This document shows, one piece after another, positions 28,837-43,644 of a stretch of DNA of 43,644 nucleotides. The notes beneath the pieces are model-generated. The model had not been told where the DNA came from and did not search any database. It saw only the letters and a list, made by a program, of their open reading frames with translations. The DNA is from Methylothermaceae bacterium (GTDB lineage Bacteria; Pseudomonadota; Gammaproteobacteria; Methylococcales; Methylothermaceae), in contig JALSSF010000151.1 in assembly GCA_026984375.1 (NCBI GenBank), positions 1 to 43,644 of the forward strand, in the 5' to 3' direction. Each line of letters begins with the position of its first letter. The stretch's first letter is position 1. The translations under genes were made by a program, and so were the position numbers.

Positions 28837-29405
28837 GCCAAGTCCGCCAGGGTGACGAAACGCGCTCCCAGCCGACGCATTTCCTCCAGCGCCTTGCGGC
28901 CGTCCTCCGGGTTCACGGCGCGGATGGCGTCGGTCAGCAGAAAGACTTCGAAGCCGCGGCGGATCGCGTCCCGCACCGTGTTGAGCACGCAATATTCCGT
29001 CGCCAGGCCGCCGACGAACAGGCGGCGGACGCCGCGGCGTTTCAGCCGGGTTTCCAGATCGGTGCCCTCGAAGCCGGAATAGGCTTCCCGCTCCGGTTCG
29101 GTGGCCTTGGAGACGACGTCCGCCTCGGTCGGCAGCTCCAGCTCGGGGGGGAATTCGGCGCCGGGCGTACCGGCGACGCAGTGGGCCGGCCAGGGGCCGC
29201 CCCGTTCCCGGAAGGAGCAGTGATCGGGGGGATGCCAGTCGCGGGTGGCGAAAACCGGCAGTCCCCGGCGCCGGAACGTTTCGAGGTAGCGGTTCAGGAC
29301 CGGGACGACGGCATCGCCGTCCGGCACCGCCAGAGCGCCGCCGGGGAGAAAGTCCTTCTGCACGTCGACGACGAGAAGGGCATCGTGATCGGTCGGTTCG
29401 ATCAT
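28833..29405 (-). CDS. pncA: Nicotinamidase (isochorismatase family)
   Basis: DALLVVDVQKDFLPGGALAVPDGDAVVPVLNR; TRDWHPPDHCSF; FVGGLATEYCVLNTVRDA. Confidence 0.94.
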   Translation of the reverse strand: MIEPTDHDALLVVDVQKDFLPGGALAVPDGDAVVPVLNRYLETFRRRGLPVFATRDWHPPDHCSFRERGGPWPAHCVAGTPGAEFPPELELPTEADVVSKATEPEREAYSGFEGTDLETRLKRRGVRRLFVGGLATEYCVLNTVRDAIRRGFEVFLLTDAIRAVNPEDGRKALEEMRRLGARFVTLADLA

Positions 29406-30616
29406 GACCGCACCTGGGTGATGACCACCGTGACGCTGTCTTTATCCTGCCCCACCGCGACCGGTGCTGTCCACCCCTCCAGGTCGCCGGGGGCCCCTTT
29501 GGCGTTGCCCGACTTGGCCACCCGGGCGCCGATGACGACTTTGGAAAAGCGCGACAGTTTCATCTGGGGTATCATCGCCAGGGAATCGTCCAGGGTGACG
29601 GTGACCGGAAGATCGCGGACCTGTTTGCGGACGATGGCGAGCGGCATCGGCGGACCTTGGGCGGCGCGGGCGAAGATGAACACCGGATCGTCCGGTTTGG
29701 CCTCGGCGGCCAGTTTTGGATCCAGGCGGACCGTGACCTGGACCGCCGCCCCGCCGGCGGCGGCCTGTCCGGCCGGCTTGGTGGCGGTTTCCGGCACCGC
29801 GAGCCCGGCCTTGCGCATCATCGCGGTCAGCTGGCGGCGCGGTTCGCTGCCCGGGGGCATCTGGGCCAGCAGCCTTTCCCAGTGACGCTGGGCGGCGGCG
29901 CGGTCACCGGCGTGCAGGGCGGCCATGCCGGCCAGCCACAGGGCGTAGGGATGATCGGGGTGTCGCTTCAGGACTTCCTGGAGGATTTTTTCCGGTTCCC
30001 CGCTCAGATCGCCACCACGGGACTGGGCCAGGGCCTCGGCGTAGCGGACCTGGATGTCGGGATGCTCCGGAGCCAGCTTCAGGGCCTTGCGGTAGGCTTC
30101 CACCGCCTTGGCCGCCTGCCCGGTGGCCTGGTAGGAGCGCGCCAGCAGCACCCAGCCTTCCAGGTCGTCGGGATGCTGTTTCAGGCGGGCTTCGATCTTG
30201 GCGATGGCGGTTTCCAGGGAAGGGGGGGTAGGGCCTTGCGCCTGGGCGGTGCGGCCGTCGAGCAGATCCGGGCGTCCCAAAGTGAAATAGAGCGCCATCG
30301 CCGCCAGCGGCATCGTCGCCAGCACGGCGAACACCGGCACCATGCCCTGGTAGGACGGCTTGGCTTCGGCCGCCGACCTGTCGCTCAGTTCGAGCAGATC
30401 GCGGTCCAGCTCGGCGAGCAGTTGTTCGTACTGCTCCCGGTCGATCTTGCCGTCGTTCAGTTCTCGGGTCAGTTCTCGGCGGCGCTGGCGGTGGGCGGCG
30501 AGATTGGCTTCCAGGTCGGCCTCAGGGCTCAGGCGTGGCGGTTTCCGCAGGGTCCACCAGAACAGGAGGTAGGCCGCCAGGATCAGGGCGGCGGCGGTCA
30601 GCCAGAAAGCGGTCAT
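29402..30616 (-). CDS. ccmI: Cytochrome c biogenesis protein CcmI (TPR domain)
   Basis: MTAFWLTAAALILAAYLLFWWTLRKPP...LNDGKIDREQYEQLLAELDRDLL; TPR region AYRKALKLAPEHPDIQVRYAEAL. Confidence 0.92.
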   Translation of the reverse strand: MTAFWLTAAALILAAYLLFWWTLRKPPRLSPEADLEANLAAHRQRRRELTRELNDGKIDREQYEQLLAELDRDLLELSDRSAAEAKPSYQGMVPVFAVLATMPLAAMALYFTLGRPDLLDGRTAQAQGPTPPSLETAIAKIEARLKQHPDDLEGWVLLARSYQATGQAAKAVEAYRKALKLAPEHPDIQVRYAEALAQSRGGDLSGEPEKILQEVLKRHPDHPYALWLAGMAALHAGDRAAAQRHWERLLAQMPPGSEPRRQLTAMMRKAGLAVPETATKPAGQAAAGGAAVQVTVRLDPKLAAEAKPDDPVFIFARAAQGPPMPLAIVRKQVRDLPVTVTLDDSLAMIPQMKLSRFSKVVIGARVAKSGNAKGAPGDLEGWTAPVAVGQDKDSVTVVITQVRS

Positions 30617-31077
30617 GCGTCGTCGGATCCGTGGTCTTGAAGGAGTTTTTCCAGCCGCCGGCGTTCGGCGTCGCTCAGGGGCGGCGGCGGCTCGGGGCGG
30701 CGCTTTCTGCCGATCCGCCATAGCAGGATTCCCCCCAGCCCGAGGGCGGCGAAGGGACCGAACCACAGCAGCCAGGTGGTCTTCTTCACCGGCGGCTTGT
30801 AGAGCACGAAGTCGCCGTAGCGCTGCACCAGGAAATCGACGATCTCGGCATCGCGCTTGCCGGCCAGCAGCATGGTGTAGACCTCATCGCGCAGGTCCTC
30901 GGCCAGATCGGCGTTGGAATCGGCCAGGGACTGGTTCTGGCACACCAGGCAGCGCAGTTGTTCGATGAGGTGCTGATAGCGCGCCTCCAGTTCGGGGTTG
31001 GGAAACTGGCGCACCTCGATACCGGCCGACGTCGGCAAGGTCAGGATCAGTGCCAGCAGGGCGATTCCCCACTTCAT
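30613..31077 (-). CDS. ccmH: Cytochrome c maturation protein CcmH
   Basis: LIEQLRCLVCQNQSLADSNADLAEDLRDEVYTMLLAGK...FLVQRYGDFVLYKPPV. Confidence 0.96.
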   Translation of the reverse strand: MKWGIALLALILTLPTSAGIEVRQFPNPELEARYQHLIEQLRCLVCQNQSLADSNADLAEDLRDEVYTMLLAGKRDAEIVDFLVQRYGDFVLYKPPVKKTTWLLWFGPFAALGLGGILLWRIGRKRRPEPPPPLSDAERRRLEKLLQDHGSDDA

Positions 31078-31604
31078 GGCTGCTTCTCCAGATAGGCCAC
31101 CAGCGGCCCCAGTTTCTCCTCCCAGTCCTTGGGGGTGATGGGACCGATGTGTTTGTAGCGGATGACGCCCTGCTTGTCGATGACGAAGGTTTCCGGCACC
31201 CCGTAGACCCCCCAGTCGATGGCCACCTTGCCGTCGGTGTCGAAGGCGACCGCGCGGTAAGGGTTGCCGAGGCGCTCGATCCACTGCAGCCCGGCCTCGC
31301 GGGTGTCCTTGTAGTCGAGTCCGTAGATGGTCACGCCCTGGCGCGCCAGCTGCATCAGGAAGGGATGCTCCTGGCGGCAGGCCACGCACCACGAGGCCCA
31401 GACGTTGAACAGGCTGACCCGGCCGCGCAGTCGTTCGGCGCTGTCGAAGGGGGTTTCGGGGTCGTCGAGACGGGGCAGGGTGAAGGTCGGCGCCGGCCGG
31501 CCCACCAGGGGCGAGGGCACCTCGCGGGGATTGAGGGTGAGGCCGACCCCCAGCAGGATCAGCAGAGCGGCGAACAGTCCCAGTGGCAACAGGTATTTGA
31601 GCAT
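31074..31604 (-). CDS. ccmG: Thiol:disulfide interchange protein DsbE/CcmG
   Basis: SLFNVWASWCVACRQEHPFLMQLARQGVTIYGLDYKD; GVYGVPETFVIDKQGVIRYKHIGPI. Confidence 0.95.
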   Translation of the reverse strand: MLKYLLPLGLFAALLILLGVGLTLNPREVPSPLVGRPAPTFTLPRLDDPETPFDSAERLRGRVSLFNVWASWCVACRQEHPFLMQLARQGVTIYGLDYKDTREAGLQWIERLGNPYRAVAFDTDGKVAIDWGVYGVPETFVIDKQGVIRYKHIGPITPKDWEEKLGPLVAYLEKQP

Positions 31605-31608
31605 GGCG

Positions 31609-33573
31609 TCAGGCGGTGGCGTTCACGGAAGCGGGGGCGGCGGCGGTGGCCCGGGCTGTGCGGTAGCGACGGTCGGCCGCCGCCAGCAGGCCGCCGGCCA
31701 TCATCAGCAGGCCGCCGAGCCAGATCCAGCGTACCGCCGGTTTGACGTAGAGACGCACGCTCCAGGCGTCCCCCTCCAGCGGTTCCCCGAGGGCGACGTA
31801 GAGGTCGCGGCGCAGACCCGGGTCGATGGCGGCCTCGGTCATGACGTTGCGCTGCACCCGGTAGAAGCGTTTTTGGGGGCGGAGCACGGCGACCCGCTCG
31901 CCGTCGCGGTACACCTCGAAGGTGCCTTCGTCGGCGCCGTAGTTGGGACCGTCGAACTCCCGCACCCCTTGGAACAGGAAACGGTATCCCCCCAGTTCGG
32001 CGCTGTCGCCGGGAGCCAGACGGACGGTGCGCTCGATACTGTAATGGTTGGAGACGCCGACACCCACCAGGAACACCGCCAGGCCGAAATGGGCCAGGGT
32101 CATGCCGTAGAAGCCGGCCGGCTGACGCAAACCCCGCCAGCCTTCACGCCGGCGCAGGCGCTGCCACCACGGCAGCAACGCGGTGGCCCCGAGCCAGAAG
32201 GCGGTGGCGAGAAACGCCAGGGTGACCAGGTCCCCGATCCGGAACCAGAGGGCGGCGACCACGACGGCGGCGGTCAGGCTGACCGGAACCAGCCAGCGCA
32301 CCTGGCGCCACAACCGGGCCGGATCGTCCCGGCGCCAGGCCACCAGGGGACCGATGCCGGCGAGCAGGAACAGGGGCGCGGTCACCGGCGCGAAGACGCT
32401 GCCGAAGTAGGGCGGTCCGACGGAGATCTTACCCAGCCCCAGGGCATCGAGTACCAGGGGGTAGAGGGTCCCCAGCAGGACGCTGGCGGCGGCCACCACC
32501 AGGAGGACGTTGTTGACCAGCAGCAGGGCTTCGCGCGAGAACCAGTGGAAGCGGGCGTGGTCCCTCACCGCCGGTGCCCGTAGCGCGTACAGCAGCAGGG
32601 AGGCGCCGATCACCAGGCCGAGGAATACCAGGATGAACAGGCCCCGTTCGGGATCGTTGGCGAAGGCGTGTACCGACACCAACACCCCGGAGCGCACCAG
32701 GAACATCCCCAGCAGGCTCAGGGAGAAGGCGAAGATCGCCAGCAGCACGGTCCAGGCCTTGAAGGCGCCGCGCTTTTCCGTCACCGTCAGGGAGTGGATC
32801 AGGGCGGTGGCCATGAGCCAGGGCATGAAGGAGGCGTTTTCCACCGGATCCCAGAACCACCAGCCGCCCCAGCCAAGTTCGTAGTAGGCCCACCAGGAGC
32901 CCAGGGTGATCCCCAGGGTCAGGAACGACCAGGCCACCAGGGTCCAGGGGCGCGACCAGCGCGCCCAGGCGATGTCAAGGGTGCCGGACATCAGGGCGGC
33001 GATGGCGAAGGCGAACGGCACCGCCATCCCCACGTAACCCATGTACAGCATCGGCGGATGGACCGCGAGGCCGAAGTCCTGAAGCAGCGGGTTGAGATCG
33101 TTGCCGTCGGGGGGCACCGGCAGCAGGCGCTCGAAGGGGTTGGAGGTGAACAGGATGAAGGCGAGGATGCCGACGCTGACGAGGCCGAGGATGCCGAGCA
33201 CCCGGGCCGTGAAGATTTCCGATAGGCCGCGGTTGAACAGGCTCACCGCCGCGGTCCACAGTCCCAGGATCAGGGCCCACAGCAGCACCGAGCCTTCGTG
33301 GGCGCCCCAGGCGGCGGCGATGCGGTAGAACAGGGGCAGGGCGGAGTTGGAATGCTCGGCCACGTAGCGGACCGAGAAATCGTTGACCACGAAGCTCTGG
33401 ACCAGGCAGTAAAACGATACCGCCAGGAACAGCGCCTGGGCCCGCGCCGCCGGTCTGGCCACCGCCACCCAGGCCGGCAGCCGCAGGGCCGCCCCCGCCA
33501 GGGGGAAGAACGCCTGCACCACGGCCATCAGCAGGGCGAAGATCAGCGCCAGTTGCCCCAGTTCCGCCGTCAT
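31609..33573 (-). CDS. ccmF: Heme lyase CcmF
   Basis: YRIAAAWGAHEGSVLLWALIL; ELGWGGWWFWDPVENASFMPWLMATALIHSL (WWD domain). Confidence 0.97.
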   Translation of the reverse strand: MTAELGQLALIFALLMAVVQAFFPLAGAALRLPAWVAVARPAARAQALFLAVSFYCLVQSFVVNDFSVRYVAEHSNSALPLFYRIAAAWGAHEGSVLLWALILGLWTAAVSLFNRGLSEIFTARVLGILGLVSVGILAFILFTSNPFERLLPVPPDGNDLNPLLQDFGLAVHPPMLYMGYVGMAVPFAFAIAALMSGTLDIAWARWSRPWTLVAWSFLTLGITLGSWWAYYELGWGGWWFWDPVENASFMPWLMATALIHSLTVTEKRGAFKAWTVLLAIFAFSLSLLGMFLVRSGVLVSVHAFANDPERGLFILVFLGLVIGASLLLYALRAPAVRDHARFHWFSREALLLVNNVLLVVAAASVLLGTLYPLVLDALGLGKISVGPPYFGSVFAPVTAPLFLLAGIGPLVAWRRDDPARLWRQVRWLVPVSLTAAVVVAALWFRIGDLVTLAFLATAFWLGATALLPWWQRLRRREGWRGLRQPAGFYGMTLAHFGLAVFLVGVGVSNHYSIERTVRLAPGDSAELGGYRFLFQGVREFDGPNYGADEGTFEVYRDGERVAVLRPQKRFYRVQRNVMTEAAIDPGLRRDLYVALGEPLEGDAWSVRLYVKPAVRWIWLGGLLMMAGGLLAAADRRYRTARATAAAPASVNATA

Positions 33574-34031
33574 CGTCCCATCCTCCGGAAATCGTCCACC
33601 GGCGGCAGCTTGCCCGAGCGCTCGAGGGCTTCGGCCACCTCCGGCGGCATGTAGTTTTCGTCGTGCTTGGCCAGCACCTGGGTGGCCTGGAAACGCCCGT
33701 CGGGCTGCAGCCGGCCGATGGCGATGATGCCCTGGCCTTCCCGGAACAGGTCCGGGAGGATGCCGTCGTAGAACACCGTCACTTCGGCGGCGCCGTCGGT
33801 AAGGGTGAAACGCACCGCCAGGCTGTCCGGTTCTCGGTGGACGCTGCCCTTCTTCACCAGGCCGCCGACGCGGAAGGCGTAGCCGGTGGGGGCTTCGCCG
33901 GCGGCGATCTGCGACGGGGTGTAGAAGTAGAGCAGGTTCTTCTGGAACGCCGCCAGGGCCAGGAAGGTGGCGGCGCTGACGCCGGCCACGATCAGCCCCA
34001 CCCAGAGCATGCGCCGTTGCCGCGGGGTCAT
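33570..34031 (-). CDS. ccmE: Heme chaperone CcmE
   Basis: AFQKNLLYFYTPSQIAAGEAPTGYAFRVGGLVKKGSV...VLAKHDENYMPPEVAEAL (heme-binding HXXXY). Confidence 0.96.
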   Translation of the reverse strand: MTPRQRRMLWVGLIVAGVSAATFLALAAFQKNLLYFYTPSQIAAGEAPTGYAFRVGGLVKKGSVHREPDSLAVRFTLTDGAAEVTVFYDGILPDLFREGQGIIAIGRLQPDGRFQATQVLAKHDENYMPPEVAEALERSGKLPPVDDFRRMGR

Positions 34032-34195
34032 CGGCCGTTCTCCTGCTCGTACCAGCGCCGCAGCCGGGCCAGGACTTCGCGGCGGCGGCGCAGGGGGGCG
34101 GCTAGGTTCCACAACAACACCGCGGCGGTCAGGCCGTAGGCGCTCCAGACGTAGGCGCCGTAACCGCCCATGTGAACGAATTCGTGCCAGGTCAT
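34028..34195 (-). CDS. ccmD: Heme exporter protein CcmD
   Basis: 55-aa MTWHEFVHMGGYGAYVWSAYGLTAAVLLWNLAAPLRRRREVLARLRRWYEQ; between ccmE and ccmC. Confidence 0.9.
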   Translation of the reverse strand: MTWHEFVHMGGYGAYVWSAYGLTAAVLLWNLAAPLRRRREVLARLRRWYEQENGR

Positions 34196-34968
34196 GGGGT
34201 TGCCTCCTCGCGTTCCGCTGAGGGTTGGATGTCGTCCTGGGTCAACAGTTCCCGGACCCAGCGGCTGCGGCGCTCGCGCCACAGCAGTTCGCTGCGGGCG
34301 CGCATCAGCAGCACGGTGAAGAAATAGAGCTGGAAGGCGAGCGCCATCAGCAGCAGCGGCCACAGCATGCTCGGATGGATCGCCGGCTTGTCGAAACGGG
34401 TCACCGTCGGTCCCTGGTGCAGGGTGTTCCACCATTCCACCGAGTAGTGGATGATGGGAATGTTGACGCTGCCGACGATGGCCAGAATGGCGCCGGCACG
34501 GGCGGCGGTGCGCGGGTCCTCGATGGCGTTCTGCAGGGCGATGTAGCCCAGATACAAAAACAGCAGGATCAGTTCCGAGGTCAGGCGGGCGTCCCACACC
34601 CACCAGGTGCCCCACATGGGCTTGCCCCAGATGGCGCCGGTGGCCAGGGCCAGGAAGGTGAAGGAGGCGCCCACGGGGGCGGCGCTGACCGCCAGACAGT
34701 CGGCCATCTTCATGTTCCAGATCAGGCCGACGGCGCCGGCCGCCGCCATGAAGACATAGACGAACAGCGACAGCCACGCCGCCGGTACGTGGACGTACAT
34801 GATGCGGAAACTGTCACCCTGCTGGTAGTCCGGCGGCGCGACCCACAGCCCCAGATAGAGCCCGGTGGCCAGGCACAGCGCCGTGGCGGCCCCGAGCCAG
34901 GGAATCCAGCGCCCGGTCAAATGGTAGAAATGCCGCGGCGAGGCGAGGCGATGGAGAAAGGCCCACAT
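34192..34968 (-). CDS. ccmC: Heme exporter protein CcmC
   Basis: MYVHVPAAWLSLFVYVFMA; KPMWGTWWVWDARLTSELILLFLYLGYIAL (WWD motif). Confidence 0.96.
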   Translation of the reverse strand: MWAFLHRLASPRHFYHLTGRWIPWLGAATALCLATGLYLGLWVAPPDYQQGDSFRIMYVHVPAAWLSLFVYVFMAAAGAVGLIWNMKMADCLAVSAAPVGASFTFLALATGAIWGKPMWGTWWVWDARLTSELILLFLYLGYIALQNAIEDPRTAARAGAILAIVGSVNIPIIHYSVEWWNTLHQGPTVTRFDKPAIHPSMLWPLLLMALAFQLYFFTVLLMRARSELLWRERRSRWVRELLTQDDIQPSAEREEATP

Positions 34969-35093: not shown

Positions 35094-35221
35094 ACGGTCC
35101 AGAAAAAGCGGTGTCGCCCACGTGCCCTCACGATGGGTCGGGTTTGCGGGGGGGCGGAGGAGGACTGAAGCCCGGCCGGCGGCGGTTAGGCGCATTTTCC
35201 GGTTTCGGAAACTGCGCCATA

Positions 35222-35240
35222 TGACACAGTGACTGTGCCA
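35222..35240. promoter_or_regulatory. 19-bp near-perfect palindrome, candidate activator site
   Basis: TGaCACAGT-G-ACTGTGcCA, 8 of 9 arm positions paired; core CACAGTGACTGTG perfect. Confidence 0.5.
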
Positions 35241-35312
35241 GATCGCGCAATTTTTCGGGCCCCGGCCGACCCGGCCATCGCCATTTCCAATGGTTTCAGT
35301 TGGTTATGCAGG

Positions 35313-35328
35313 CGGCACGGATGTTGCC
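35313..35328 (+). promoter_or_regulatory. Candidate sigma54 (-24/-12) promoter for the multiheme cluster
   Basis: CGGCAC-GGATG-TTGCC; GG-N10-GC spacing as in TGGCAC-N5-TTGCW; ~84 nt upstream of the 35412 start codon. Confidence 0.55.
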
Positions 35329-35411
35329 AGTTCTATACAAGGCGACCGGCCAGGCACCCGCAGCCTGTTGGCCGTGAATAAGAACCCTGAAAACCCTAGT
35401 GGAGAAGAACG

Positions 35412-38219
35412 ATGCGATTCATCCCTGCGATCGACCGAAGGCTGTGCCTCGGGGCCGTCCTGCTTGCGGGCGTCGGCTCCGTGGACGCCAAGGTCAACTG
35501 GATCGACAAGCCGGTCGAGCACCCGGCGATCCCGCTGCTCGACGAAGACGGCAACCATGTGCTGCAGAGCGGCAAGCCCTACAGTCCGCGCAAAAGTTGC
35601 GCCGGCTCCGGCTGCCACGACTACGACAAGATCACCAGCGCTTACCACTTCGAAATGGGGCGCGACGAGGCCAACGACGACTTCGGCAAGTTCAACAACT
35701 TTCTCGGTGCCAAGTCCCTGGTCAGTCCGGGCTGGTTCGGGGGATTCAACTGCATGGGGGGCAGCATTCCCACCCTTCTGTCCAACAAGCACAACGCCTA
35801 CGAGGAGATGATCCGCGACTACGGGGCCGCCGGCTTCATCAATTGCTCCAGTTGCCACGTGGGCGGCGGTTTCGGGGAGAAGGACCGCGAGGGGATCCGC
35901 TACACCGAACGTGACCCGGCCACTATCCCGCTCTGGGACGGCGACTACTACAACCGGGGCACCGACGAGAACAATCAGAAGGTGAGCAAGGACGTGGTGG
36001 CCAAGTGGGACTGGCACAAGAGCGGTCTGCTCGAGGCCGACTGCCTGTGGTGTCACATGAGCCCGGACGGTATCAGCGTGCCGGACGACCGTATGCGGGG
36101 CCGTCGCGGCATCATGAGCGATTATCGCTCGGCGCGGCGGGAATTCATCCGGGGCGGCTGGTTCCGCTACGCCGCCAACACCGCCTGGGAGTTCCTGCCC
36201 ACCGTGGACGGCAAGAAAATCCTGACGGTGGAGCGGGAATGGGACGAGGACGGCAAGCGTTACACCATCAAGACCGGCCCCGACGGCAATCCGGTCATCC
36301 ACTGGAATCCGGAAGCTTTCGACGGGAACGGCCGCATCCACGTGAAGATGATCCGCTTCCCGGAAAGCGAGAACTGCATGTCCTGCCACCGGACCAGCAA
36401 CTCCCGCCGCGGTTTCTACGGCTACGGCGACGAGGCCCGGATGGAGCTGGGCGAGGACGGCACCCTGATCGAGGACTACAAGGACGACGTCCACAAGGGC
36501 AAGGATCTGGCCGAATACTGGCACGGCGAATCGCGGGTGATGGATAACTGCAACGTCTGCCACAGTCGCGCTTACCTCAAGGCCCGTCATGAGAACGTGA
36601 ACCTGGACCAGGATCACAACTTCATGAAGGGCAATTCCGACATGGATATCCGCAACGACCTGGATTTCTCCGCGGAGCTGCGCACCTGTGAATACTGCCA
36701 CGTGGAGGGCAGGAATCCGCGCGGCGAGCCGCCGATCATCACCACCGGTCACGACACGCAGCTGGCGGCCCACTTGCAGCGCTGGAAGCACAGCGGTTAC
36801 ATGGCCGGCTATCCCGAGGGAAAACTGGAGCAGGTGGTGGAGACCCACTTCCGGGTACTCAACTGCCAGACCTGCCACATCACCCGCAAGGAGAGCCGGG
36901 GCAAACCGCTGCAGATCATGTACCGCTACCGCGACGACCAGGACGGCAAGCGCCGGATCATTCCCTACAATCCGCGGTTGCGTTACCTGTGGATCGACAC
37001 CACCACCGGCTGGACTCTGACCCGCTACGAGCGCGGCCTGGTGGCCAAGCAGCGGAAGGATGCGGACGGCAAGCCGATCAAGCAGGGACGCAACTTCGTC
37101 TTCGATATCTACGATCCGGAAACCGGCGAGAAGCTGCCGGGGACGGTGTTGGGACGGATTTCCCACGGCTCCATGCGCTTGGGTGATCCCACCGACGCCG
37201 ACGGCTACCGTTCCCTGAAGCGGGCCTACGACAAGCTGATGAAGCTGCGTCACGCCCCGCAACTCGACGGCCGCGAGCCGGACGTGAAGCTGGTATGGCT
37301 CGAGTCCAACGAGTACATCATCAGCCACAACGTCCGTCCGGCCATCGAAGCCATGCCCTGCGGCGACTGCCACGCCCAGAAGCAGGACGGTTCCTACAGC
37401 GCCTTGCTGAAGGACGACGGGGTGTTGGGTTCCGGCTACGTCAAGAAGGTCGCCCGGCTCCCCGATCCCAAACTGGTGGAAGAGGGGGTCGTGGTGCTCG
37501 GCATGCCTTACATGCGACTGGCCGAGGACGGCACCATCTACGAGCGTGAGCGGGACATCCTGTTCACCACGTTGGTGGATCCGTTCATGACCATCAACGA
37601 CGCGCCGAACAGCCTGTTCTTCGGCGGCGCCCTGCGGAAACTGCCCATCGCCGAGGTGGCGCGGATGGCCCGGCTGGACGGCGGTGTGCTCGCCGGCGGC
37701 ATGGCTCAGCACGGCAGCGACGCCGAGTTCCACGCCTTGGTGCCCCGTTACGGCCGCGACGGTTTGCGCAACGCGATGGTGGCTTTGCCCGCCAATACCA
37801 TCACCGACGCCCTGGCGCCGAAGTGGCGGGTGGAGATGCTGCTGTTCCCGCAGTCGCCGGCGATCGCCGATCTGCTTCATCAGCAGGGCTTCGGCGACCT
37901 GGCGTCCGACGCCATCCGCATTGATCTGCTCGACGAGAACAAGCAGCCGATGGCGGAAGTGCTGGGTGGTCCCATGCTGATCAAGCTGCCCTACCGGGGG
38001 CGGTCCACCGACAAGGGGCAGATCGAGGTGTTGACCGCACGCGACGGAAGCAGCATCGAGCGTATCCCCGCCGACCGCATCCTGTTCCTGAAACCGCGGG
38101 GTGCCGACACGGCGGGCGAAAGCCTGCCCGGCGGCACGTCGGTGGGAATCGGCATGGAGGACGGCTACGTGCTGTTCCTGGCCGACAAACCGGGCTACTT
38201 CGCTGTGGCCGATTTGTAA
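35412..38219 (+). CDS. Secreted octaheme-type c-type cytochrome, 935 aa, function unknown
   Basis: Signal peptide ending GSVDA; 7 CXXCH (CSSCH, CLWCH, CMSCH, CNVCH, CEYCH, CQTCH, CGDCH) plus CAGSGCH (CX4CH); ~285-aa heme-free C-terminus. Confidence 0.9.
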   Translation: MRFIPAIDRRLCLGAVLLAGVGSVDAKVNWIDKPVEHPAIPLLDEDGNHVLQSGKPYSPRKSCAGSGCHDYDKITSAYHFEMGRDEANDDFGKFNNFLGAKSLVSPGWFGGFNCMGGSIPTLLSNKHNAYEEMIRDYGAAGFINCSSCHVGGGFGEKDREGIRYTERDPATIPLWDGDYYNRGTDENNQKVSKDVVAKWDWHKSGLLEADCLWCHMSPDGISVPDDRMRGRRGIMSDYRSARREFIRGGWFRYAANTAWEFLPTVDGKKILTVEREWDEDGKRYTIKTGPDGNPVIHWNPEAFDGNGRIHVKMIRFPESENCMSCHRTSNSRRGFYGYGDEARMELGEDGTLIEDYKDDVHKGKDLAEYWHGESRVMDNCNVCHSRAYLKARHENVNLDQDHNFMKGNSDMDIRNDLDFSAELRTCEYCHVEGRNPRGEPPIITTGHDTQLAAHLQRWKHSGYMAGYPEGKLEQVVETHFRVLNCQTCHITRKESRGKPLQIMYRYRDDQDGKRRIIPYNPRLRYLWIDTTTGWTLTRYERGLVAKQRKDADGKPIKQGRNFVFDIYDPETGEKLPGTVLGRISHGSMRLGDPTDADGYRSLKRAYDKLMKLRHAPQLDGREPDVKLVWLESNEYIISHNVRPAIEAMPCGDCHAQKQDGSYSALLKDDGVLGSGYVKKVARLPDPKLVEEGVVVLGMPYMRLAEDGTIYERERDILFTTLVDPFMTINDAPNSLFFGGALRKLPIAEVARMARLDGGVLAGGMAQHGSDAEFHALVPRYGRDGLRNAMVALPANTITDALAPKWRVEMLLFPQSPAIADLLHQQGFGDLASDAIRIDLLDENKQPMAEVLGGPMLIKLPYRGRSTDKGQIEVLTARDGSSIERIPADRILFLKPRGADTAGESLPGGTSVGIGMEDGYVLFLADKPGYFAVADL

Positions 38220-38248
38220 CGACGAAGGAAGTTTCAATCGAACGTATC

Positions 38249-38277
38249 GGGGATCCCGCATGGGATCCCCTGTTTTT
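38249..38277 (+). terminator. Intrinsic terminator-like hairpin inside the cytochrome cluster
   Basis: GGGGATCCC-GCAT-GGGATCCCC then TGTTTTT, 30 nt after the octaheme gene stop. Confidence 0.75.
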
Positions 38278-38296
38278 GTAACGAGGAGGAAACGCC

Positions 38297-38527
38297 ATGT
38301 TGAAGACCATCTGGATGAAGACGGCCCCCTGGTTGGCCGGCGCCGGTCTGGCGGGCGGCCATGCCGGCGTGGCGACCCGCTGCACCGTGCCTCAGCAGGG
38401 GGTGTGCGCCGGCTGCGGCAGTTGCGCCGTGGTGGTGGCTTCGCTGGTGACCTGGGCGCTGGTGGCCAAAAAACGCCGAGGCGGGGATTTCTATACCGTG
38501 ACCAGCGATCGCGACGGGGCCCGATAA
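38297..38527 (+). CDS. Small cysteine-motif membrane protein (76 aa), unknown function
   Basis: Strong SD (GAGGAGGAAACGCC-ATG); MLKTIWMKTAPWLAGAGLAGGHAGVATRCTVPQQGVCAGCGSCAVVVASLVTWALVAKKRRGG; CXXCXXC motif next to a TM segment. Confidence 0.75.
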   Translation: MLKTIWMKTAPWLAGAGLAGGHAGVATRCTVPQQGVCAGCGSCAVVVASLVTWALVAKKRRGGDFYTVTSDRDGAR

Positions 38528-38579
38528 CCACAGGACGGGGGACCGGATTGATCGCAGACGGTTGGAGTGAGCCAGGGAG

Positions 38580-39857
38580 ATGGTCTCTTTGCGACGAGGT
38601 CTGGCGGTCCTGGGTTTTTTTCTGGTCGCCGCCGGGGTGAGGGCGGTGGACGTGAGTGCGATCCTGGAGACCCGGTTGCAGGTGGACAACCGTTTCAATC
38701 GCAGCGCTCGGGTTCTCGGGGAAGTCTGGGGGGATGCGGATCTGGCGGGTCGCGACTGGCAACTTCACGCCTCGTGGGTCGGGCGCATGTCCAGCTTGCC
38801 GGACGACAGCGGCGGGCGCTTGTATCAGGGATTCTTGGCCAAACGCTGGCCTTGGTTGAACAGCGTGGTACGCCTTGGCCGGTTCCAGCGCGCCGACGTG
38901 GCCGGCCTGTATCTGCTCGACGGCGCCCAGTGGGATTATCAGGTTGGCGGCTGGCAGGTCCAGTGGTACGGTGGGCGGCCGGTGCGCCTCGATCACGTGC
39001 GCTCCGTGCAGGCGGATTTCGCCTACGGGGTGAATCTGTCCCGCCGGGAAACCGTCGATTGGAGCTTGGGCGGATGGCGATGGTCGGGTTATCGGCTGGG
39101 AGTGGGTTTCCAGGGATTCCGCCGGAACGGCGATCCCTCCCGGCGTCTGCAGGCCCGTGGTGGCGTGTATGGGACGTGGGGGAGCGGACGGGTCTGGGAG
39201 GTCAATCTGGCGGCGGTGTACCGCTTCGATCGCCGCCGTTTCGAGGACGTCTGGTTCCAGGGATTCGTCGATCTGCCGCAGCGTTTCCGCTTTCGCGGTT
39301 ACTACGAGTACTACCGTCCCCGCGCCCCCTTTCCCACCTTCCGCGAGCGTTTCGTCAGCGCCTACGCCCTGGGGGAGCAGAGCCTGTTGCGTCTGGGGTT
39401 GGAGCGGCGGCCGAAGCCGTCGCTGCGTTACTTCGTCGTCGGTCAGCGGGCCACCCGGGCCGACGGCTTCGACGGCTACGGTATCCGGGCGGGCGGTGAC
39501 GTCGGCTGGCGCGATCACCGGTGGTCGGTGGTTTACGACTATCTGGAGATCGGCTATGACGACGCCCACAGTGCCTACGGCCAGTGGCGCTACGTATGGA
39601 ATTCGCGCCTGGAGAGCCGGTTGAACGTGGCGCTGCGGCGTGAGCGGAAACTGTTGTACGGGGACAACTGGGCCCGCGGTGGGGAAGTTGGGCTGCGCTA
39701 CCTGTTCAGCACGGCCACGGTGGTGGATCTCAGCGTCTCCTACGTCGCCAACAGCCGCCGGCGTGACGATTACGTGGGGGCCGTGCGTCTCGTCTACTAT
39801 TTCGACCGATTCCGGCCCAAGCAGGAGAGAGAAACGTGCGCGGCATCGTGCTGGTGA
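38580..39857 (+). CDS. Putative outer-membrane beta-barrel protein (porin-cytochrome conduit candidate)
   Basis: Signal peptide; many alternating aromatic/polar strands (WQLHASWVGRM, WQVQWYGGRPV, VWEVNLAAVYRF, RFRGYYEYYRP, WSVVYDYLEIGYD, VVDLSVSYVANS, VRLVYYFDRF); no heme motif. Confidence 0.75.
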   Translation: MVSLRRGLAVLGFFLVAAGVRAVDVSAILETRLQVDNRFNRSARVLGEVWGDADLAGRDWQLHASWVGRMSSLPDDSGGRLYQGFLAKRWPWLNSVVRLGRFQRADVAGLYLLDGAQWDYQVGGWQVQWYGGRPVRLDHVRSVQADFAYGVNLSRRETVDWSLGGWRWSGYRLGVGFQGFRRNGDPSRRLQARGGVYGTWGSGRVWEVNLAAVYRFDRRRFEDVWFQGFVDLPQRFRFRGYYEYYRPRAPFPTFRERFVSAYALGEQSLLRLGLERRPKPSLRYFVVGQRATRADGFDGYGIRAGGDVGWRDHRWSVVYDYLEIGYDDAHSAYGQWRYVWNSRLESRLNVALRRERKLLYGDNWARGGEVGLRYLFSTATVVDLSVSYVANSRRRDDYVGAVRLVYYFDRFRPKQERETCAASCW

Positions 39858-40423
39858 TCGTCATGCTCTGGTACGCCATCGGCGGGGCCGCGGAGAAGGA
39901 AAAGCGCTGGTGGGAGAAGCGTGAGGCGCGCAAGCCGGACATTTATTTCCCCCACAACGTCCACATGCCGGTGATGAAGCAGGAAGGGGACGTGTGCATG
40001 CTGTGCCATTCCTTCCAGAAGACCACCGAGACCGATCCGAAGGTGCTCGAGGCCCTGAGCGCGATCGCCAACGAGCCCCTCAAGGCGGTATGCCACGATT
40101 GTCACGTCGTCGAACGGCGGGCGCCGTGGCGCTGCGACCTCTGTCACCCGGACAAGACCAAGATCTGGCCGGCGGATCACGATTTCGACTATGTCCGCCA
40201 TCACGGTCACGCCGCCCGGCGGAACGAAAAGGCCTGCCGCGAATGCCATCTGGATCTTTCCTATTGCACCGACTGCCATTTCCGCCGCGACGTTTCCGGC
40301 ATCGGCTACCACCCCCTGGGTTACATCACTCTGCACGGCATGGAGGCGCGCACCATGCCTTCCAACTGCGGTCGTTGCCACAACAATTTCTACTGCGACC
40401 GTTGTCACGCGAGGCGGCGATGA
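39836..40423 (+). CDS. Secreted heptaheme-type c-type cytochrome (GTG start)
   Basis: AGGAGAGAAAC-GTG; N-terminal hydrophobic signal; CMLCH, CHDCH, CDLCH, CRECH, CTDCH, CGRCH, CDRCH. Confidence 0.9.
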   Translation: MRGIVLVIVMLWYAIGGAAEKEKRWWEKREARKPDIYFPHNVHMPVMKQEGDVCMLCHSFQKTTETDPKVLEALSAIANEPLKAVCHDCHVVERRAPWRCDLCHPDKTKIWPADHDFDYVRHHGHAARRNEKACRECHLDLSYCTDCHFRRDVSGIGYHPLGYITLHGMEARTMPSNCGRCHNNFYCDRCHARRR

Positions 40424-41379
40424 GAAGGTTGTTGATCGTCTGGTTGCTGTGGATGGCTGCCACCCCTGCCTTCGCGGTCGAGACCCACGACGTTTCCCTG
40501 GCGCAAGGCCGGCTTCTGCTCACCGAGCGTCACGAGGGTTGGGGCAAGGGGCGCTGCCAGAGTTGCCACGTCCTGCGGATGATCCACGGGGACGCCCCCC
40601 ATATCCGGGATATCGTCCGCGCCAAGGGTTTCGACACCTGCGGCGGTTGCCACGGCGACAACGGCGCCGGTGTCGAACGCCGCTGCGCGATCTGCCACAA
40701 CCCTCGGGACCTGCCGGCATCACCTTATCTGACGGGGATTCACGCCCACGACTTCACCATCGACGGCGACCGACCCCTGGCGGACGGCGATTGCATGATC
40801 TGCCACTGGGCCGCGGACATGGACGGACGCTGGGAGATCGATACCGACCTGACCCGGTTCCCCGACGCCGCCGGTTTCGATCGCCCTTACCGGCGGGAGT
40901 CCGAATTCTGTCTGCGCTGCCACAACCGCAGTCACCAGCAGCCGGGTTTCCCGGTGCGGGCGCGGGACTATCTCGACCCGCTGGTGGCCGTCGAGGAAAG
41001 CTGGCGCTACATGGATTATCACGGCTGGGCGGTCGGCAGCGGCGACCGAATCTTCGCCGGTCTGCGCGACGGTTATCGTTACGGCACCGAGCTGGCCTGT
41101 ACCGAGTGCCACGCCATGCACGGCACCGACAACCCCAAGCTGATCCTCGACGACAGCCGCAAGGGGGCGTTCGGTCTGTCCTTCCGGGACCGGGGCGTGC
41201 CGGTGCAGGTGTTCGCGCCGGGGGACTATTCCCAACTGTGCGTGCTCTGCCACGCCATGACCACCCCGCTGGAGGACGCCCATATCGACACCGGCAACGG
41301 TCTTTCCGGCGTCCACCAGGTGGGGGGGGACTGCACCCTGTGTCACACCCACGGCCGGGCGGCCCAGGTGGGCTTATGA
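40420..41379 (+). CDS. Secreted octaheme-type c-type cytochrome (319 aa)
   Basis: Signal MRRLLIVWLLWMAATPAFA; CQSCH, CGGCH, CAICH, CMICH, CLRCH, CTECH, CVLCH, CTLCH. Confidence 0.92.
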   Translation: MRRLLIVWLLWMAATPAFAVETHDVSLAQGRLLLTERHEGWGKGRCQSCHVLRMIHGDAPHIRDIVRAKGFDTCGGCHGDNGAGVERRCAICHNPRDLPASPYLTGIHAHDFTIDGDRPLADGDCMICHWAADMDGRWEIDTDLTRFPDAAGFDRPYRRESEFCLRCHNRSHQQPGFPVRARDYLDPLVAVEESWRYMDYHGWAVGSGDRIFAGLRDGYRYGTELACTECHAMHGTDNPKLILDDSRKGAFGLSFRDRGVPVQVFAPGDYSQLCVLCHAMTTPLEDAHIDTGNGLSGVHQVGGDCTLCHTHGRAAQVGL

Positions 41380-42254
41380 GGCGGACGTTCCTGTTGGCGT
41401 GCTGGTTCGGGCTCCAGGCGGCCGCCGCGGCGGAAGAAAAGCCGAAGGTGCCGCCGTTGCATCACCTGGTGGAGGTGACCGTGCCGGAAACCATGAAGGT
41501 GGATCCGGCCTTGCCGCTGCCGGCGGACCGCAAGCTCGTCTGCCGTGTCTGCCACGGCATCGAAGACATCGACAAAATGGAGTTCGACGAGGTGGACAAG
41601 GACGATCCGAAGTTTCTGCGCGGCGGACCGTACCGCCGCCTGACCGACTTCTGCTTCCGTTGCCACGACCGCGAGCGTCACCGGCGTCCCAACGTTCATG
41701 CCATGCTCGACGACAACGGCGAGATCATCGAGGAAAACTGCCGTTACTGCCATCGCAAGGTCCTGAAACGGGACCGCCGCTACCGCCTCGACGAGATCGA
41801 ACTGAGGGCACCGGTGGACAAGCTGTGCTGGGGTTGTCACCTCAAGACGCCCCATCTCAACGCCCTGGTCCATCAGGTGAAACCGTCCGACAAGGTCAAG
41901 GAGCAGCGCAAGCGCTTCCTGGCCGAACATCCCGAGGTCCTCCTGCCGTTGACCGCCGACGGCAGGGTGACCTGCATCACCTGTCACACCCCCCATCCGC
42001 CGGGGGTGCTGGACGAGAAATTGCCGGCCGCTCGGCAGGCCGCCACCGCCGAGGTCGAGGAAGCCCCGGTGTACGCCGACAGTCCGTGGGCCGCCACCAT
42101 CGCCGAGGACAAGCGCGAGCGGTTGGCGGAACTGAGCCGCCGCCTCGGCCGGCCGCTGGATTACCGTTACCGTCAGATTCAAAAGGAAGCCTTGCTGCGC
42201 CTGCCCGCCAAGGACGGGCAGCTGTGCCGGGCCTGTCACGTGTTCGATGAATAA
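41376..42254 (+). CDS. Secreted hexaheme-type c-type cytochrome (292 aa)
   Basis: Signal MRRTFLLACWFGLQAAAAA; CRVCH, CFRCH, CRYCH, CWGCH, CITCH, CRACH. Confidence 0.92.
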   Translation: MRRTFLLACWFGLQAAAAAEEKPKVPPLHHLVEVTVPETMKVDPALPLPADRKLVCRVCHGIEDIDKMEFDEVDKDDPKFLRGGPYRRLTDFCFRCHDRERHRRPNVHAMLDDNGEIIEENCRYCHRKVLKRDRRYRLDEIELRAPVDKLCWGCHLKTPHLNALVHQVKPSDKVKEQRKRFLAEHPEVLLPLTADGRVTCITCHTPHPPGVLDEKLPAARQAATAEVEEAPVYADSPWAATIAEDKRERLAELSRRLGRPLDYRYRQIQKEALLRLPAKDGQLCRACHVFDE

Positions 42255-42278
42255 GATCGCCATTCGGAGGTTATCGCC

Positions 42279-43313
42279 ATGAGAGTCTGGTCCATCGCCC
42301 AACGCTGGCACAAGGTGCCGAAGATGCAAAAGTTCCGCTACGGCGTTATCGCCGCCTCCTGCATCGCCTTTCTCGGCCCGCTGGCCTTTCTTCCCCAATT
42401 GGTGGGCAACGAAGACCTGTGCGGGGTGCTGTGCATGCGCCGCTTCTATCTCTATTTCCCGGGCATGAGTTTCGAGGATCTGTGGATGCACGTGTCGGTG
42501 GCCTGGATCGGGGTCATCGCCTTCTTCACCATCATTACGGTCACCTTCTTCTTCGGCCGCCTTTGGTGTTCGTTTTTGTGCCCGGTCGGTGGCCTCAGCG
42601 AGCTGGTCAGCCGGGCGCTGGGGGAGCGCTGGAAGATCGATTTCCGCTTCCTGCCCCAGGTGCCGATCCGCTATGGCTATCTGGCCACCTACATGGTGCT
42701 GCTGCCGATGCTGGGGGTGAGCGCCTGCACCCTGTGCAACTTCGTCACCGTGCCGCGCCTGGTGACCGCCGTCACCGGCGGTGCCGCCGGTCTGGCGTTT
42801 CTCTTTTCCACCATCGGCCTGGTGAACCTGGCCATGCTGCTGCTGCTCGGTTTCTTTTCCGCCAAGGGGCGGGCCTACTGCCAGTTCATGTGCCCCATCG
42901 GCGCCCTCGACGCTCTGGTCAACCGCCTGGGGGCCAAGTTCCGCTTCACCTACCACATCCGCGTCGAGCGCAGCCGCTGCACCGGTTGCAACGAATGCGC
43001 CAAGGCGTGCATGTGTGGCGCCATCAAGATGGTGGACCGCATCGCCGTGGTGGACCAGACCTCGTGCATGTCCTGCCACGATTGCGTCGATTCCTGTGAG
43101 TGGCACGCCATCGAATGGACCCCGGGGCCGCGCAACAAGACCCCCAAACGCCTCAAGAAAGGGGTGCAGATCTACCCCGAGCCCCAGTGGCAGGCGTTCG
43201 CCCCGGCGATGGGGGAGGGGATTCCCTGGCCTCGGATCGTCAACGCCCTGATCGTCGCCACCGCTTCCGCGTTCGTGCTCTACACCTCCTACACCGCATG
43301 GATCGCCCATTGA
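42279..43313 (+). CDS. NapH/NosR-like polytopic membrane protein with two 4Fe-4S ferredoxin motifs
   Basis: TM segments; CSFLCPVGGLSE and CQFMCPIGALDA (CX3CP); CTGCNECAKAC and CMSCHDCVDSC ferredoxin motifs. Confidence 0.88.
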   Translation: MRVWSIAQRWHKVPKMQKFRYGVIAASCIAFLGPLAFLPQLVGNEDLCGVLCMRRFYLYFPGMSFEDLWMHVSVAWIGVIAFFTIITVTFFFGRLWCSFLCPVGGLSELVSRALGERWKIDFRFLPQVPIRYGYLATYMVLLPMLGVSACTLCNFVTVPRLVTAVTGGAAGLAFLFSTIGLVNLAMLLLLGFFSAKGRAYCQFMCPIGALDALVNRLGAKFRFTYHIRVERSRCTGCNECAKACMCGAIKMVDRIAVVDQTSCMSCHDCVDSCEWHAIEWTPGPRNKTPKRLKKGVQIYPEPQWQAFAPAMGEGIPWPRIVNALIVATASAFVLYTSYTAWIAH

Positions 43314-43644
43314 CATTCGTCCGCTTGCTGCTGGCGGCCGGCCTGGTGTTCGCTGTGGCAGCGGTCTGGGCCGGTCCGCGTCAGGCCGATCCCGACGGCT
43401 GTCTGGTGTGCCACGCCCTGCCGGGGTTGGAATACATCGACGCGCAGGGGGTGCGGCGCACCGCCACCATCGACCGGCACGCCTTCTACGGTTCCCTCCA
43501 CGGCAGCGTGCCCTGCCGCGACTGTCACCGCAAGATCCGCGACTATCCCCACGATCCCAAGAACGGCTACGTGGACTGCGGCGCCGCCTGCCACGTGGAA
43601 GAGCCGTCGGAGGCCGAGGCCTTCAGCCATCGCGACATCGTCGA
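43298..43644 (+). CDS. Secreted multiheme c-type cytochrome, 3' truncated by window edge
   Basis: ATG 43298 overlaps the previous stop; signal LTFVRLLLAAGLVFAVAAVWA; CLVCH, CRDCH, and CGAACH (CX3CH). Confidence 0.85.
   Translation, partial: MDRPLTFVRLLLAAGLVFAVAAVWAGPRQADPDGCLVCHALPGLEYIDAQGVRRTATIDRHAFYGSLHGSVPCRDCHRKIRDYPHDPKNGYVDCGAACHVEEPSEAEAFSHRDIV

Follow-up and report, generated by a model that had tools for sequence, protein, structure and literature searches.

A ten-gene multiheme cytochrome operon of a Methylothermaceae bacterium, orthologous to MCA0424-0433 of Methylococcus capsulatus: a candidate outward electron conduit with inner-membrane components that are fused in relatives

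The operon and its published orthologue

In the porin-cytochrome conduits MtrCAB, PioAB and Omb/Oma/Omc of Geobacter, an outer-membrane barrel is encoded together with secreted multiheme cytochromes, small heme-dense ones included. In Methylobacter, a porin-cytochrome (PCC) cluster is described as comprising an MtrA-family decaheme cytochrome and an MtrB/PioB-family barrel (PMC13322032, 2026). A different set of 11 genes begins at MCA0424 in Methylococcus capsulatus and encodes eight cytochromes with 58 CxxCH motifs and a beta-barrel at MCA0427 (Larsen & Karlsen 2016, PMC4831470). Here we describe an orthologous operon at the right end of contig C151 of a Methylothermaceae bacterium, probably a methanotroph (genome 2.49 Mb, 240 contigs). 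The window analysed is this entire contig of 43,644 bases. Most likely, the operon encodes an outward trans-envelope conduit that would link the inner membrane with the cell exterior.

The M. capsulatus region was listed by Ward et al. 2004 (PMC517821) and was proposed in 2016 as a possible electron route to the exterior (Larsen & Karlsen, PMC4831470). MCA0424 and MCA0426 were found in the cell-surface fraction, in higher amounts without copper (PMC4831470). Furthermore, the Bath strain produced anodic current and reduced ferrihydrite, both to a higher extent without copper (Tanaka et al. 2018, PMC6281684), and the current was lowered by CO and, in part, by deletion of MCA0421 (PMC6281684). 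A report of a deletion within the MCA0424-0433 operon was not found in the open-licence literature.

The genes of the operon in the window, with the basis of each assignment, are:

35412-38219, + strand: A8, secreted octaheme cytochrome of 935 amino acids with seven CXXCH and one CX4CH motif; homologue of MCA0424/MCA0426 (sequence)
38297-38527, + strand: small Cys-rich membrane protein of 76 amino acids; its position corresponds to MCA0425 (sequence)
38580-39857, + strand: predicted outer-membrane beta-barrel of 425 amino acids; orthologue of MCA0427 (AlphaFold2 (AF2) model)
39836-40423, + strand: g3, compact cytochrome of 195 amino acids with seven CXXCH motifs (sequence)
40420-41379, + strand: g4, cytochrome with eight CXXCH motifs, predicted to be periplasmic or outer-membrane associated (sequence, family-model scans)
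41376-42254, + strand: g5, predicted periplasmic cytochrome with six CXXCH motifs (sequence, family-model scans)
42279-43313, + strand: NapH-like membrane protein (TIGR02163 below cut-off, Fer4_5 above cut-off, scan for transmembrane (TM) segments)
43298-43644, + strand: g7, N-terminal part of an octaheme cytochrome, two CXXCH and one CX3CH motif up to the contig end (sequence, relatives)

A recount in the sequence gave 32 heme-attachment motifs (8+7+8+6+3) in five secreted cytochromes, the number that a model reading the sequence alone (the sequence-only reading) had given as a minimum. Shuffled versions of each window protein contained a mean of 0.01-0.06 CXXCH motifs with a maximum of 2, and among the six-frame stop-to-stop open reading frames (ORFs) of at least 100 amino acids in the window CXXCH was confined to the operon genes. 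The sole CXXCH of the NapH-like protein (CMSCHDCVDSC), being part of a 4Fe-4S motif, does not count as a heme site.

The contig ends inside g7, gene seven of ten, or eight of ten if the small membrane protein is counted. The complete operon was reconstructed with profiles that covered 17 loci of relatives plus 77 that a scan of 84,980 species genomes had yielded. Its order is fixed: A8, small membrane protein, barrel, g3, g4, g5, NapH-like protein, g7, g8 and g9. Here g8 is a 3-heme cytochrome, and g9 carries 9-14 CXXCH motifs in uncut copies, with an NHL propeller ahead of the hemes in the copy scanned. In this genome, whose assembly breaks inside g7, g8 and g9 are found on contig C122 (L118, L119). 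Counted over the 63 loci with at least two operon genes, window included, the order was kept in 59, and all eight main components were present in 33 loci. The four exceptions were the doubled A8 gene in Methylococcus, two Sedimenticola loci in which barrel and membrane protein have changed places, and a locus with a weak stray match.

By gene order and motif content, the locus is the orthologue of the MCA0424-0433 operon, since the order and the CXXCH total in the Methylococcus loci L025, L027, L115 and L116 (11 genes, A8 doubled and followed by the barrel; 7+7+7+8+6+6+3+14 = 58) equal the published figures; the numbers MCA0425 to MCA0433 were assigned from this order, not from the Bath sequence, and by them NapH would be MCA0430 and g7 MCA0431. 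In M. capsulatus Texas (L088), the region before A8 contains exact copies of the sigma54 and IHF sequences published for MCA0424 and a near-identical FUR box; in the window these three elements are not present as such. The window genes stand in the same order as those of Methylococcus, with 34-71% identity per gene (lowest for the barrel, highest for NapH), and share with MCA0424-0433 the heme counts per gene and the proposed role. The differences are that Methylococcus has A8 twice and that the window is cut in g7, with g8 and g9 on a separate contig.

The sequence-only reading had called the cluster uncharacterised and perhaps a new type of conduit. The cluster has in fact been described, since it has a published orthologue, but the function of this orthologue is putative; the orthology to a characterised complex that would have refuted the reading is thus found by half only. 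The missing end of the operon, with the diflavin fusion and the 14-heme cytochrome, lay beyond the sequence on which that reading was based. The operon is already known, and apparently new here are two gene fusions, described below, and the family-wide order; in the open-licence literature no description of a NapH-octaheme fusion, of an octaheme-diflavin fusion or of the family-wide order was found.

The hosts are mostly Gammaproteobacteria: Methylococcales, methanotrophic symbionts of Bathymodiolus, Sedimenticola and metagenome-assembled genomes (MAGs) of Chromatiales. A8 was also found alone on one Halobeggiatoa contig. When 369 genomes of the class were drawn evenly, nine of them contained g3 at E<=1e-10, two as weak matches. 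A8 was present in 8 of the 10 genomes of the same genus, the window's own included. Near-equal A8 scores were seen in a Desulfuromonas MAG (L091) and a Methylococcaceae MAG (L092) of one series, and a 64% identical copy in a Nitrosomonas MAG (L041). The L091 and L041 contigs may be misbinned and were not counted as spread beyond the group.

Predicted outer- and inner-membrane modules

The protein at 38580 had been taken for a barrel from its sequence, and its AF2 model bears this out with 22 strands, a mean predicted local distance difference test score (pLDDT) of 89.3 and a predicted template modelling score (pTM) of 0.79. The top 50 Foldseek matches were generic outer-membrane barrels only. 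There was no Pfam match, hence none to MtrB/PioB (PF11854), and the barrel profile had no sequence match in the PDB. The barrel is accompanied by g3 in 53 loci. In g3, all 7 heme motifs and 14 His residues are invariant in 22 sequences; therefore, every g3 heme can be bis-His ligated. TonB receptors with 22 strands house a plug of about 150 residues, and since g3 has about 175 residues after its signal peptide, a compact cytochrome of this kind would fit inside a 22-strand barrel. This makes g3 a candidate for the wire within the barrel. The cytochrome g4 weakly resembles decahemes of the DmsE/MtrA type, below cut-off (TIGR03508, E=1e-7), and g5 has 6 proximal and 6 other conserved His residues. 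Searches with g3, g4 and g5 against PDB sequences gave weak or irrelevant matches only.

A8, the probable surface cytochrome, has 15 invariant His residues, 8 proximal and 7 others. Because of this deficit of one, one A8 heme may be open or otherwise ligated. The first heme motif is variable, CX4CH in the window and more widely spaced in Methylococcus, and the N-terminal region around it is highly conserved. The A8 model (pLDDT 81.5), which contains no hemes, had no fold match in the PDB by Foldseek at E<=0.001, and the A8 profile found no credible PDB sequence match. The small membrane protein, found with A8 in 59 loci, has four invariant Cys residues in the alignment (C29, C37, C40 and C43), which could form a metal or Fe-S site.

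Like the porin-cytochrome conduits, the operon combines a barrel with secreted multiheme cytochromes. Unlike them, it has a barrel with 22 predicted strands and no PF11854 match, an A8 without a PDB relative and its own NapH-octaheme module for the inner membrane. No MtrA or MtrC pattern had been recognised in the sequence-only reading, and for MtrA the family models agree: the best window protein reached 31.7 of 192.2 bits against the MtrA/DmsE decaheme family. For MtrC/OmcA-like surface cytochromes, A8 gave a borderline score, 29.1 bits against the 30-bit cut-off of PF22113, and its heme-free model had no Foldseek match. Against the model of octaheme tetrathionate reductase (OTR), A8 gave a weak match (E=6e-6, 25.5 of 375 bits), and there was no fold match to OTR at the threshold given above. 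Geobacter conduits were compared by description; the sequence searches covered the PDB and family libraries. By its likely mechanism the operon resembles porin-cytochrome conduits; the tests run place it outside the Mtr/Pio family. With the MtrAB-type PCC cluster of Methylobacter it shares the occurrence in Methylococcales, the proposal of extracellular electron transfer and a scattered distribution (PMC13322032); identity with that cluster was rejected, as PF11854 is absent from this genome.

The suggested NapH-type Fe-S membrane protein is indeed encoded. It has two CX3CP motifs, two 4Fe-4S motifs and about five TM segments in the TM scan, and it matches Fer4_5 above cut-off. With the NapH model TIGR02163 it is alike in motifs and topology, at a score below cut-off (E=2e-17, 63.4 of 213.05 bits). 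With the NapH/NosR family it thus shares the character of a TM protein with CX3CP and two 4Fe-4S motifs, but it stays below the family cut-offs, has an extra C-terminal TM segment and is fused to an octaheme cytochrome in 20 loci. In these loci NapH and the octaheme part of g7 are a single ORF (for example L058:17058-19409), in which the extra TM segment leads into the cytochrome domain, a consistent TM layout. Because the two are one polypeptide there, NapH and the g7 octaheme would work together as one inner-membrane module.

Complete g7 proteins of relatives combine a signal peptide and eight hemes with a single TM helix and a tail in the cytoplasm, a topology read from hydrophobicity only. 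In Methylococcus and in three genomes of the window's own genus (G003, G008 and G009), this tail resembles CysJ and is a diflavin reductase:

L021:14183-17062, L025:15939-18884 and L036/L038: g7 homologues in which a periplasmic octaheme is joined through one TM helix to an NADPH diflavin reductase of the CysJ kind

In the two g7 proteins scanned, flavodoxin, FAD and NAD domains follow the single TM helix, and both tails pass TIGR01931 for cysJ (672.6 and 677.6 versus 668.15 bits). They share with CysJ the flavodoxin, FAD and NADPH domains, and differ from it in being membrane-anchored, fused to a periplasmic octaheme and without a CysI partner above cut-off. Most lineages that carry the operon are without the diflavin half. 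Loci of the diflavin form group as a single clade (SH-aLRT 94) in the NapH tree; since the window NapH falls inside it, the window g7 probably carries a diflavin half as well. The rest of this g7, any diflavin half included, is absent from the assembled contigs of the genome.

Proposed electron route and its alternatives

In the conduit that we propose, the NapH-g7 module would take electrons from quinol via NapH. Where the diflavin half exists, electrons could pass from NADPH through FAD/FMN to the cytoplasmic 4Fe-4S clusters of NapH and on to the g7 octaheme. From the periplasmic octaheme they would reach g5 and g4, then the compact g3 inside the barrel and finally A8 on the surface, which would deliver them to an extracellular acceptor, Fe(III), Cu(II) or another oxidant. 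Direction and substrate are what we infer; outward flow is favoured because the step from NADPH to the hemes is downhill. The barrel model, the published surface location (PMC4831470) and the NapH-octaheme fusion all speak for the trans-envelope conduit with an inner-membrane Fe-S link that had been suggested from the sequence. As to the suggested link to the quinone pool, NADPH may take the place of quinol as the donor in the diflavin lineage, or supplement it. More tentative is the narrower proposal, to which we give somewhat less than even weight, that the operon of Methylococcus and Methylothermaceae is an NADPH-driven conduit, in which a diflavin-octaheme polypeptide and a NapH-type protein wire the surface cytochromes to NADPH and not to quinones only.

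Several points weigh against an outward conduit. The functions of all operon proteins are predicted ones, and as the models are of single chains, the choice of the cytochrome that would enter the barrel is putative. A8, which lacks one conserved distal His, could be an enzyme instead. The diflavin half of this genome, itself deduced, would fall in an assembly gap, and we know of no precedent for electron transfer at the inner membrane from a diflavin domain to a NapH-type protein. MCA0421, the deletion of which merely lowered the current, neighbours the operon and is not part of it, and Fe(III) reduction did not support growth of M. capsulatus (PMC6281684).

The lack of growth on Fe(III) and the low currents (PMC6281684) would suit an assimilatory metal reductase at the surface. 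Like the FRE reductases of yeast, it would reduce Cu(II) or Fe(III) with electrons from NADPH or quinol so that the cell can take up the metal, and would serve neither respiration nor redox balance. In M. capsulatus, absence of copper induces the orthologue, which shares one copper-responding cluster with TonB genes, a FUR-like box lies upstream (PMC4831470; also seen in L088), and g7 has an NADPH-flavin-heme build. However, the 54 hemes of the whole operon seem too many for nutrient acquisition and the diflavin half is absent from most lineages with the operon, which makes this role unlikely. Copper deficiency is also the setting in which Tanaka et al. proposed an uptake of reducing power (PMC6281684). 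An inward conduit would draw electrons from donors outside the cell (minerals, Fe(II), reduced sulfur or partner cells) and pass them via A8 and the barrel to quinone, or to NADP+ via the diflavin half, for example for soluble methane monooxygenase (sMMO). MAGs of sulfur-oxidiser genera, Sedimenticola among them, also carry the operon. Against this, the reduction of NADP+ (about -320 mV) is uphill from typical multiheme potentials and a coupling subunit was not seen in the operon, and the published data show anodic current and Fe(III) reduction only; we therefore hold inward flow to be improbable as well.

The atypical first heme motif of A8, its conserved N-terminus, the heme without an invariant distal His and the weak OTR match would all fit an enzyme complex, in which A8 reduces or oxidises some sulfur or nitrogen compound and the barrel serves as a simple pore or in export, not in electron conduction. 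This is very unlikely in view of the A8 fold, which at E<=0.001 matches neither OTR nor anything else in the PDB, the surface location of A8 orthologues (PMC4831470) and the joint occurrence of barrel and g3. A further alternative concerns the CysJ half of g7 only and is compatible with a quinol-fed conduit: this half may serve assimilatory sulfite reduction and be merely tethered to the cytochrome. The fused CysJ is the sole full-length CysJ in 7 of 14 genomes tested (five Methylococcus, G003 and G009), and a sulfite-reductase-like hemoprotein is present. On the other hand, none of the 14 encodes a CysI above cut-off, and G008, of the same genus, has a separate CysJ besides the fusion, so that we regard a sulfite role as quite unlikely. 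An outward conduit from the inner membrane to the surface remains the reading that we prefer.

Upstream region and meaning of the operon

Two further features lie upstream of A8 in the window:

29402-34968, - strand: cytochrome c maturation genes CcmC, CcmE, CcmF, CcmG/DsbE, CcmH/NrfF-like and CcmI (NCBIfam scan)
35199-35411, strand not assigned: intergenic region with the presumed promoter and a 19-bp dyad, TGACACAGTGACTGTGCCA, at 35222 (sequence)

The ccm genes run divergent from the operon; CcmC, CcmE, CcmF/NrfE, DsbE and CcmI were matched above the NCBIfam cut-offs and the NrfF-like protein below. Genes for cytochrome c maturation are also found near the operon in L040, L086 and L088, and ccmC is located downstream in L031/L032. 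The dyad, a putative element, is absent from the other loci compared. Palindromes resembling GTGATATCAC lie 120-230 bases upstream of A8 in L040, L038, L088, L108 and L070 and are possible operators. In these five loci the element beats most shuffles, figures that are merely suggestive since the consensus was derived from the same loci; in the window, L021, L023 or the other loci it was not better than most shuffles.

The copper-repressed surface cytochromes of M. capsulatus, on record since the 2000s, have had no purpose assigned to them. The operon, as a defined unit of ten genes carried mostly by methanotrophs and other Gammaproteobacteria, supplies concrete candidate genes, with a barrel that does not match the MtrB family and a possible entry point for NADPH. 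It lets one ask whether these bacteria export electrons from NADPH, reduce metals that they then assimilate, or draw in electrons from outside.

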